A stretch of 64,000 bases of DNA from Pyramidobacter porci. GTDB lineage: Bacteria > Synergistota > Synergistia > Synergistales > Dethiosulfovibrionaceae. The stretch covers positions 124,001-188,000 of the forward strand of contig NZ_VUNH01000002.1 of assembly GCF_009695745.1 (NCBI RefSeq). The letters run 5' to 3'. Positions 28,986 to 34,161 of this stretch are shown here, piece by piece (positions within the stretch are counted from its first letter, which is position 1; every line of letters starts with the position of its first letter). The notes below the pieces were generated by a model that was not told the DNA's origin, searched no databases, and saw only the letters and a list, made by a program, of their open reading frames with translations. The translations under genes were made by a program, and so were the position numbers.

Positions 28986-30080
28986 GTGAGAGAAAAAGCC
29001 TATCTGGTGCTGCAAAACGGGCGCGTTTTTGCCGGAGAACGCTTCGGCGCTGCCGGCGACGTGACGGCGGAGATCGTTTTCGCCACGGGCATGACCGGCT
29101 ATCTGGAAACGCTCACCGACCCCAGCTATCACGGGGAGATCGTCGTACAAACTTTTCCGCTGATCGGTAACTACGGCGTCATCCGTGAGGATTTCGAAAG
29201 CCCGCGCCCGCGGCTGAGCGCGTATGTCGTGCGCGAACTGTGCGACGCTCCTTCGAACTTCCGCAGCGGCGGCACGCTCGACGATTATCTGCGGGAAAGC
29301 GGCGTAGCCGGACTTGCCGGCGTGGATACGCGCACGCTGACGCGGGTTATCCGCGAACACGGCGCGATGAACGCCGCCGTCTGCTCACGTCTGCCCGAGG
29401 ACCTGCCGGCTTTCGCGGCGGACTTGGCGAAACGGCGGCTGTCGGGCGACGTCTATGCGGTGACCTGCGGCAAGCCCTTTATCCTCAACCCCGACGGCAC
29501 GCGCCACATCGTGCTCTGGGACTTCGGCTGCAAAGGCGGCATTGCCCGCGCGCTGACGGAGCGCGGCTGCCGCGTCACCGTGGTGCCGGCGGACACGGCG
29601 GCGATGAAGATCCTTGCCCTGCATCCCGACGGCGTGCTGCTGTCCAACGGTCCCGGCGATCCCGCTTCCTACCGCGGCATCATCGAGAACGTCAACGCCG
29701 TGGCCGAGACGGGGCTGCCCATGTTCGGCATCTGCCTTGGTCATCAGCTTCTGGCTCTGGCCCGCGGGGCACGCACGGCGAAGCTGAAGTACGGTCACCG
29801 CGGCGAAAATCAGCCCGTGCGCGAAACGGCGACGGGGCGCCTGCTGATCACCAGTCAGAACCACGGTTACGCGGTGGAGAGCGACAGCGTTCCGGCGGGG
29901 AACCGTCTGAGCTACGTCAATGTGAACGACGGCACCTGCGAGGGCATCGACTACGGCGGCGTCAACGCCTTTTCCGTGCAGTTCCATCCCGAAGCCTGCG
30001 CCGGTCCGCAGGACACGGCGTTCCTGTTTGACCGTTTTTTGAAGAATTGCGAGGAGGCCGTCCGCCATGCCGCTCGATAA
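28986..30080 (+). CDS. carA: Carbamoyl-phosphate synthase small subunit
   Basis: 364 residues; the glutaminase that feeds ammonia to CarB. It starts at GTG 28986 with GAGGAAGAGG upstream. The N-terminal CarA domain is followed by a class I glutamine amidotransferase with C250 (FGICLGHQL), H334 and E336 (QFHPEA). Length is normal. The stop overlaps the carB start by 14 nt. It lies 58 nt after the pseudo-dihydroorotase in the same operon. Confidence 0.96.
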   Translation: MREKAYLVLQNGRVFAGERFGAAGDVTAEIVFATGMTGYLETLTDPSYHGEIVVQTFPLIGNYGVIREDFESPRPRLSAYVVRELCDAPSNFRSGGTLDDYLRESGVAGLAGVDTRTLTRVIREHGAMNAAVCSRLPEDLPAFAADLAKRRLSGDVYAVTCGKPFILNPDGTRHIVLWDFGCKGGIARALTERGCRVTVVPADTAAMKILALHPDGVLLSNGPGDPASYRGIIENVNAVAETGLPMFGICLGHQLLALARGARTAKLKYGHRGENQPVRETATGRLLITSQNHGYAVESDSVPAGNRLSYVNVNDGTCEGIDYGGVNAFSVQFHPEACAGPQDTAFLFDRFLKNCEEAVRHAAR

Positions 30081-33000: not shown

Positions 33001-34161
33001 TACACCACCGGCGGCACCGCCGAATACCTGAGAAGCCGCGGCATTCGCAGCGCCTCGGTGGGCAAGATCAGTCAAGGCAATCGCGATATTCCTTATCTGC
33101 TCGATCAGGGACGGGTGCAGTACGTGCTCTCGACCAGCTCGCCCGACAGCAGCGAGCGCGCCGACGCTCAGGTGCTGCGCAGCAAGGCGATTGAGCGCCG
33201 CGCCGCCTGCATGACCAGCCTCGACACGGCCCGCGCTCTCGTAGACTGCATGGTCAGCGGTTATGACGAGGACAACGTGGAGCTCGTCGACATGGCCCAT
33301 TTGCCGGAACGCAAGCGTCCTGTCCATTTTGTCAAGATGCGTTGCGGCGGCAACGAATACATTTATGTCGATGCGATCCGCCAGAGCATCGCCGAGCCGG
33401 CCAGCCTCAGCGTGGCCCTGTGCGGGCGGCGGCGCAGCGTCGGCGGCGATGGTCTCGTGATCGTCGCCCCGGCTCGGGGAAAAGCGGACGCGCGCATGAT
33501 CCTTTACGATGCCGACGGCACGCGCGCCCGCATCGGCGGCAACGCGCTGCGCGGCGTGGGCAAATATCTTTACGAGAAACTGGACGTGAAGAAAAAAGAT
33601 CTGTCGATTGAAACCGACGACGGCGTCAAGGCGCTTCGCCTTTACGACCGCGACGGCGAGATCTACAGCGTCGAGGCGCTGATCGGCCGACCCGATTTTG
33701 ACCCCGCGCGCGTGCCCGTTATGCTCAACGCCGATGGCCGCCCCGTGGTGAGCCAGTACTATTCCTGCGGCGGGTTCGACGATCAGATTACCTGCCTGTC
33801 GCTGGGCGACCCGCAGTGCGTGATCCTGACCGACGACTGCGACGGCGCGGAACTGAGCGTGGAGGGCCCGTTGATGGAGCGCGCGGGGATATTTCCGGAA
33901 GGGACCAACGTCAGCTGCGTCAGCGTTGCCGACCGCCACACGCTGCGGGTGCGCACATGGGAGCGCCGCATCGGCGAAACCGCGGGCTGCGGCACCTCGG
34001 CCTGCGCCGCGGCGGTCGTCGCGGCCAGACTGGGGCTGGTAGACGAAGGCGAGATCTCCGTGAGAACGGCGGGGGGGCTGCTGGTCGTCCGTCTCGCGCC
34101 CGAAGGGGTATTCCTGATCGGCGGCGTGGACTGCGGCTTTGAGGGAGTCATCAAGATATAG
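30067..34161 (+). CDS. carB: Carbamoyl-phosphate synthase large subunit fused to a DapF-like domain
   Basis: 1364 residues against about 1070 for normal CarB. Residues 1-1070 are complete CarB: ATP-grasp 1 (IGSGPIVIGQAAEFDYAG at the start), oligomerisation region, ATP-grasp 2 (from LGSGPIRIGQGIEFDYA, about 564) and the MGS regulatory domain (about 950-1070). From about 1087 a second protein begins in frame, homologous to diaminopimelate epimerase: MRCGGNEYIYVD, SVGGDGLVIV, DADGTRARIGGNALRG, LSLGDPQCVI and TWERRIGETAGCGTSACAAAV. The second catalytic cysteine is kept (C1308), but the first is glycine (G1157 in IGGN). There is no stop and no ribosome site at the junction, so the fusion is real unless a sequencing error removed a stop. 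Its role is unknown. Confidence 0.93.
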   Translation: MPLDKKLKRVMIIGSGPIVIGQAAEFDYAGTQACRALRALGIEVILVNSNPATIMTDSDIADKVYIEPLTVEILKRLIEKERPDGLLSTIGGQNGLTLSMQLARDGWLESRGVRLLGASLDTIERAEDRQLFKDMLEKIGEPVIPSAIATRVDEAMNFGAKIGYPVIIRPSFTLGGTGGGIAHSAAEMEQLARRGLEVSPVGQILVERSVAGWKEIEFEMMRDGDDNCIAVCSMENLDPVGVHTGDSIVVAPALTLADKEYQLLRSAALRIVRELEVQGGCNVQFALNPDSFEYAVIEVNPRVSRSSALASKATGYPIAKVSAQIAMGLRLDEISNAVTGKTSAFFEPALDYVVVKMPRWPFDKFSSAARTLGPQMKATGEVMAIAPTFEEALLKSLRGAEIGMDSPRLAALKELGDDQIEACLREPTDQRLSVVYEALGRGVSVDHVHDVTKIDRWFLWKLKKILAVESALRKCGGALPAELYARAKATGFLDRTIEKLSGAKVEKHRAPVYRMVDTCAAEFAAETPYFYAAAPVSGSEDEAAGFIAHHDGLAASKGTIVVLGSGPIRIGQGIEFDYAAVHCVWALKRLGYTVVMINNNPETVSTDFDTADRLYFEPLTPEDVMDVIRLERPLGVVVAFGGQTAIKLTKCLSENGIAILGTSSDAIDAAEDRERFDTILNRCGIARPRGHGVETLAQALAAARDVGYPVLVRPSYVLGGQNMIIAYDDESVSNYMRRLLAIGTDGPVLIDKYLEGTEVEVDAVCDGTDVLIPGIMEHIERAGVHSGDSIAAYPAWNLSGPVTEKLVESTARIALELGVKGLVNIQYVIYNNQVYVIESNPRASRTIPYISKVTGLPLVDIATQVMLATLTPDAPKLRDLPCGTGLYRPSPYCAVKVPVFSFEKLSGADVQLGPEMKSTGEVLGVGKNLEEALYKGLIAAGYAVRHHEPGGVLISVQDRDKPEIVELARRLASLGCRLYTTGGTAEYLRSRGIRSASVGKISQGNRDIPYLLDQGRVQYVLSTSSPDSSERADAQVLRSKAIERRAACMTSLDTARALVDCMVSGYDEDNVELVDMAHLPERKRPVHFVKMRCGGNEYIYVDAIRQSIAEPASLSVALCGRRRSVGGDGLVIVAPARGKADARMILYDADGTRARIGGNALRGVGKYLYEKLDVKKKDLSIETDDGVKALRLYDRDGEIYSVEALIGRPDFDPARVPVMLNADGRPVVSQYYSCGGFDDQITCLSLGDPQCVILTDDCDGAELSVEGPLMERAGIFPEGTNVSCVSVADRHTLRVRTWERRIGETAGCGTSACAAAVVAARLGLVDEGEISVRTAGGLLVVRLAPEGVFLIGGVDCGFEGVIKI

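Follow-up and report, generated by a model that had tools for sequence, protein, structure and literature searches.

A carbamoyl-phosphate synthase large subunit fused in frame to a DapF-like, probably non-catalytic tail in Pyramidobacter porci

Results

A complete CarB is followed in frame by a DapF domain

The subject of this analysis is a single open reading frame (ORF) in a 64,000-nucleotide stretch of the Pyramidobacter porci genome (contig NZ_VUNH01000002.1, positions 124,001 to 188,000), referred to below as the window and numbered from its first letter. The ORF occupies 30067-34161 on the forward strand, starts with ATG and comprises 1364 codons with no internal stops. It encodes a complete large subunit of carbamoyl-phosphate synthase (CPSase, the entry enzyme of pyrimidine and arginine synthesis), CarB (residues 1-1062), and then, without a break in frame, a full DapF domain (residues 1087-1362), the epimerase of diaminopimelate (DAP) that serves cell-wall and lysine synthesis. 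A first-pass annotation made from the letters alone had proposed this fusion, and its coordinates proved exact. The recognisable parts are as follows.

30067-33252, forward strand: CarB part, CPSase large subunit of the clostridial fused type (residues 1-1062; TIGR01369, NF003671)
32953-33210, forward strand: MGS allosteric domain (residues 963-1048; Pfam MGS)
33319-34158, forward strand: DapF-like tail (residues 1085-1364; TIGR00652)

The CarB part, the only CarB copy in the genome, matches TIGR01369 at full length (residues 4-1062; 1387 bits, cut-off 1027) and NF003671 at 1437 bits. It is ∼57-64% identical to the fused CarBs of other lineages and 45-49% identical to the native, unfused CarBs of Synergistota. 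Alignment to E. coli CarB and a comparison among groups show that its MGS domain retains the positions corresponding to K954, T974, T977 and K993.

The tail matches TIGR00652 over residues 1087-1362 (187.4 bits, cut-off 114.65), and Pfam DAP_epimerase matches it in two stretches. The DapF motifs can be followed one by one, and the first-pass annotation had placed both catalytic positions correctly: the first cysteine (C73 of Haemophilus influenzae DapF) is G1157, while the second (C217) is kept as C1308. The tail thus lacks the cysteine pair of an active DapF, and it carries the further changes N64D (D1148), N157D (D1248) and H159Q (Q1250). Among the substrate-binding residues, whose roles we take from PMC8225329, N11, N75, N190, E208 and R209 are kept and N64 and N157 are Asp, leaving the set incomplete. 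A separate DapF with both cysteines is encoded elsewhere in the genome (contig C7:67216-68016; 219 bits), which answers a question that the annotation had raised.

Modeling of the domain, also suggested there, yielded a confident AlphaFold2 prediction for the MGS domain and tail as a single chain (pLDDT 91.6, pTM 0.86). The top Foldseek matches of the predicted structure in the PDB are DapF enzymes, the best fit being the aziDAP-bound enzyme 9mro (TM 0.92, rmsd 1.9).

The fusion is widespread in Clostridia

A continuous fused ORF of ∼1370 amino acids is present in five other Pyramidobacter genomes, one of them a 2-contig assembly, and no stop or frameshift interrupts the fusion in any of the six. 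The tail of Pyramidobacter sp. C12-8 is 100% identical to that in the window. Neither of the two outcomes that the first-pass annotation had named as fatal to its claim, a missed stop or frameshift or the lack of fusions in relatives, is therefore borne out. Across Synergistota, a domain closely related to the tail is present in 29/188 genomes, nearly always as a CarB fusion; in one of them (G101) it is free-standing, with both cysteines present.

A scan of bacterial genomes with the tail alignment returned mainly metagenome-assembled genomes of Clostridia. Most of the resulting 80 loci are CarB-DapF ORFs of ∼1350 amino acids, although the proportions among them are no prevalences, because the loci were picked by similarity to tails that have lost the first cysteine (hereafter Cys-lost). 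The search for further long CarBs with a C-terminal DapF match, proposed at the outset, gathered 84 distinct fused ORFs in all, from Clostridia, Pyramidobacter and other Synergistota. The CarB-DapF fusion is a widespread clostridial architecture, shared by many gut Clostridia, and is not peculiar to the window's genome.

Fusions occur in two catalytic states with different genomic contexts

The first catalytic position is Cys in 30 of the 84 fused ORFs, all of which have both cysteines (C/C fusions), and Ser, Ala, Gly or Phe in the other 54, the window's included. Some of the 54 lack the second cysteine as well, and a Synergistota clade of the genera g12, g23, g25 and g41-44 has Ser at both positions (Ser/Ser). 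Stand-alone DapF sequences keep the first cysteine in 55/56 rows. Mapped onto the CarB tree, the intact or lost state has changed at least seven times.

We compared the surroundings of the two states in tests that count related genomes as independent. The gene dapL, whose product LL-DAP is the substrate of DapF, lies near 18/30 C/C fusions and 0/53 Cys-lost fusions (Fisher p 1e-10), commonly in the order carA - carB.dapF - pyrG - dapL. Conversely, argF lies near none of the 30 C/C fusions and near 13 of the 53 Cys-lost ones (Fisher p 0.003), and many clostridial Cys-lost fusions sit within arginine operons. In clostridial genomes, a separate dapF accompanies 3/24 C/C and 19/30 Cys-lost fusions (p 2e-4), and either a separate dapF or Ddh accompanies 12/24 and 25/30 (p 0.02). 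We considered a spare dapF as the full explanation of cysteine loss, and it is a partial one, because some Cys-lost genomes lack it; Ddh accounts for 6/11 of the clostridial cases that have no separate dapF.

Because the C/C fusions often contain the genome's only DapF and adjoin dapL, they are probably bifunctional enzymes with a working epimerase. The window fusion is not of this type, having a Gly/Cys tail and pyrimidine genes for neighbours.

Two individual arrangements among the loci were also recorded. At L129 (1565-6607) and L146 (2-3820), a second, free-standing dapF comes immediately after the CarB-DapF fusion, with both cysteines in both copies. At L177 (4809-8939; G118), a CarB ORF of 1377 amino acids begins with ∼330 unrecognised residues, though it was read from stop to stop and its true start is unsure; no MGS domain was detected in it.

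Pyramidobacter acquired its fusion by horizontal transfer

In the CarB tree, every fused CarB, the window's among them, falls in one clade with a support of 100, so a single old fusion fits best. Two rows inside this clade appear unfused. In L182 (6700-7013; G251), a CarB of the fused lineage stops at the junction, which is a clean loss of the tail in a genome that has a separate dapF. L108 was considered as an unfused intermediate and rejected, its break being a run of Ns.

The CarB tree and the DapF tree agree in nesting Pyramidobacter with the clostridial fusions L081, L082 and L087. AU tests reject a grouping of the window's CarB with the native CarBs of Synergistota (p-AU 2e-5) and likewise a single clade for all fusions of the phylum (p-AU 1.5e-4). 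The simplest reading of these trees is a single old fusion in Clostridia followed by at least two transfers into Synergistota, and the placements indicate that Pyramidobacter acquired an already degenerated fusion by horizontal transfer.

Cys-lost tails are under selection and mostly retain the DAP pocket

Pairwise dN/dS of the tail in Cys-lost fusions is 0.05-0.27, a sign of purifying selection, and for the Ser/Ser clade the value is close to that of CarB. Most Cys-lost tails retain the rest of the DAP pocket, and in the clostridial Cys-lost set the pocket residues are more conserved than other columns. The pattern is sharpest in the 13 argF-linked Cys-lost fusions, in which the pocket is invariant except for C73 (and N11 in three) at a mean domain identity of 54%. 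A 13-row clostridial Cys-lost clade that largely overlaps this set has lost the residues aligned with E. coli K954, K993, N1015 and T1017, which we take to be the UMP site of E. coli CarB. The lysines aligned with that site are kept in most other fusions, and Pyramidobacter keeps its MGS lysines.

Two groups depart from the conserved pocket. In the Ser/Ser forms, N11 is Lys and N75 is Ser; in DapF these two residues hold the reacting centre (PMC8225329). In Pyramidobacter, binding of DAP by the tail appears doubtful, because N64 and N157, which hold the distal carboxylate of DAP (PMC8225329), are both Asp.

The fusion lies in a pyrimidine operon

The gene order in Pyramidobacter is pyrB - pyrC-like - carA - carB.dapF. 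The window contains the following features beside the fusion.

26952-27884, forward strand: pyrB, aspartate carbamoyltransferase (NF002032 322 bits, TIGR00670 249 bits)
27881-28927, forward strand: dihydroorotase-like ORF between pyrB and carA (TIGR00857 82 bits, cut-off 279)
28986-30080, forward strand: carA, small (glutaminase) subunit (TIGR01368 422 bits), whose last 14 bases overlap carB-dapF
34163-34221, no strand assigned: perfect 27-bp inverted repeat with a 5-nt loop, directly 3' of the stop codon

The partner subunit is therefore encoded immediately upstream of CarB. The dihydroorotase-like ORF gave no match in a Pfam search, and a full PyrC (400 bits) is encoded on contig C5 of the same genome; the product at 27881-28927 is probably an inactive homologue of PyrC, and its gene shares an operon with the putative pseudo-DapF. 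The inverted repeat lies where convergent ORFs meet and its arms recur at other Pyramidobacter loci; it is likely a two-way terminator.

Discussion

A proposed bifunctional ancestor and a probable pseudo-epimerase

Because Cys-lost tails are under purifying selection and otherwise mostly keep the pocket, such a tail is most likely a pseudo-epimerase, retained for a regulatory or structural function. We favour, with reasonable though not high confidence, a history in which a bifunctional ancestor repeatedly lost the first cysteine and the tail was retained in a non-catalytic role. An active DapF would have been joined to the end of CarB once, long ago and most likely in Clostridia, yielding an enzyme that could both synthesise carbamoyl phosphate and epimerise LL-DAP to meso-DAP, often encoded beside dapL. 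Several lineages, commonly those with another source of meso-DAP, would then have lost the first cysteine, leaving a pseudo-epimerase that is still folded and under selection on CarB. Such a tail most likely acts without epimerisation: where the pocket is intact it may bind a DAP-like ligand and thereby modulate CPSase, or it may influence how CarB assembles. Pyramidobacter would have received the degenerated CarB horizontally, and it is now the sole CarB of the genome, in a pyrimidine operon. There is a precedent for non-catalytic action: E. coli DapF with C73A and C217A has no epimerase activity and still binds and stimulates RppH (PMC4227774). The regulatory role that the first-pass annotation had suggested is plausible. 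The sequences directly show the fusion, its distribution and genomic context, the cysteine losses, the transfer and the purifying selection, from which the loss of epimerase activity and a regulatory or structural role are inferred.

Several findings weigh against this account. In Pyramidobacter, tail dN/dS (0.14-0.27) is ∼1.5-3 times that of CarB (0.07-0.14), over divergences reaching a dS of ∼0.9, and the DAP pocket is altered in the window's own protein. A phylogenetic pairs test of cysteine loss against a spare dapF is not significant (median p 0.6, with only 6 pairs), and five clostridial genomes with a Cys-lost fusion lack both Ddh and a separate dapF. In the Synergistota genera g41-44 the fused Ser/Ser domain is the sole DapF, yet most genomes keep lysA. 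Finally, L182 shed its tail cleanly, so CarB does not need the tail everywhere.

A more specific and decidedly tentative proposal is that the tail is an amino-acid sensor, an epimerase turned allosteric domain through which DAP would control carbamoyl phosphate synthesis, replacing UMP control by the MGS domain in the arginine-operon relatives; in Pyramidobacter the ligand might instead carry a positive charge at its far end, as ornithine and lysine do. The lysine or DAP sensor of the first-pass annotation gains from some relatives, with their intact pocket and dismantled UMP site, and loses for the window protein, in which both distal-carboxylate asparagines are Asp and His159 is Gln. With its altered pocket and weaker constraint, Pyramidobacter is where sensing is least certain.

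An unlikely alternative for Pyramidobacter is a vestigial tail, one that was carried along silently after the transfer and persists only because its folded domain is harmless. The weaker constraint, N64D, N157D and H159Q, a change of the second cysteine motif from CG to CA in two Pyramidobacter species and the tail loss in a related lineage would all fit such decay, but dN/dS remains well below 1 over these divergences, six genomes carry neither stop nor frameshift, and the full fold is predicted with high confidence.

Surviving catalysis in the tail, whether as a one-thiol (Cys/Gly) or a Ser/Ser epimerase or isomerase and whether on DAP or on another amino acid, is less probable again. Pyramidobacter does keep the second cysteine together with N11, N75, N190, E208 and R209. 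The Ser/Ser domain of g41-44 is under constraint as tight as that on CarB, and as the sole DapF homologue in a further genome (G092) too, it accompanies a lysA that is mostly kept. Ddh was not found in the g41-44 or G092 genomes, and no replacement for DapF was found in g41-44 in searches for Ddh and the alanine-racemase type, dapB detection there being unreliable; g41 has no recognisable alanine racemase. In other organisms, a PLP-type DapF2 is a proposed substitute for DapF (PMC9026213). Against a surviving activity, replacing both cysteines of E. coli DapF abolishes epimerisation (PMC4227774), the related racemase PddB needs its two cysteines (PMC8225329), the Ser/Ser forms have changed both reacting-centre residues, and Pyramidobacter also encodes a normal, two-cysteine DapF. 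The one-base epimerase offered by the first-pass annotation finds no support, though it keeps a small probability.

Separately, no clear alanine racemase (TIGR00492) was seen in the near-complete Pyramidobacter genomes G000 (the window's) and G113.

An assembly or sequencing error that joined two neighbouring genes through a missed stop or frameshift can be dismissed, since nothing in the window suggests it, the one relative that appeared split (L108) did so only through an assembly gap, and the same unbroken ORF recurs in six separately assembled Pyramidobacter genomes and in ∼78 further fused ORFs.

Significance

The fusion joins two textbook enzymes of different pathways, and its lineage includes both apparently bifunctional and repeatedly inactivated states, a natural series for the change from enzyme to non-catalytic domain. 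It makes control of carbamoyl phosphate synthesis by DAP or lysine supply directly testable; if the tail does sense such a ligand, the supply of cell wall and lysine precursors would be linked with arginine and pyrimidine synthesis. There is also a warning for annotation: some Clostridia carry their only DapF concealed in the C-terminal part of CarB, and elsewhere a DapF match in that position is probably no epimerase.

Comparison with known systems

Both halves of the protein belong to known families, and their fusion is apparently undescribed. As the first-pass annotation had supposed, a literature search confined to open-access papers turned up no CarB-DapF architecture, and the NCBIfam matches listed for the window protein include no curated model of it.

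Like other CarBs (TIGR01369), the window CarB is complete, present in single copy and preceded by carA, with most E. coli UMP-site residues in its MGS domain; it differs in the ∼280 residues after that domain and in being nearer to clostridial fused CarBs than to those of its own phylum. The tail resembles DapF (TIGR00652, Pfam PF01678) in predicted fold, in motifs along its whole length and in several DAP-binding residues. Unlike DapF, it is fused to CarB, has Gly for the first cysteine together with N64D, N157D and H159Q, and is not the only DapF of its genome.

Three other systems bear comparison. The bifunctional DapF/glutamate racemase (NF038284, an NCBIfam exception model) also deviates from single-function DapF, but its chemistry is different and CarB is not involved; the window tail scores 85 bits against it, below the cut-off of 350. 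In E. coli, DapF without its catalytic cysteines acts non-catalytically on another enzyme, RppH (PMC4227774; PDB 6d13), but there the proteins are separate, the partner is different and wild-type DapF is active, so the case serves as precedent only. The 2,4-diaminobutyrate racemase PddB (PMC8225329) has the DapF fold, derives from DapF and, like the window tail, has replaced residues of the distal site; in contrast to the tail, it stands alone, keeps both cysteines and is active (PMC8225329).
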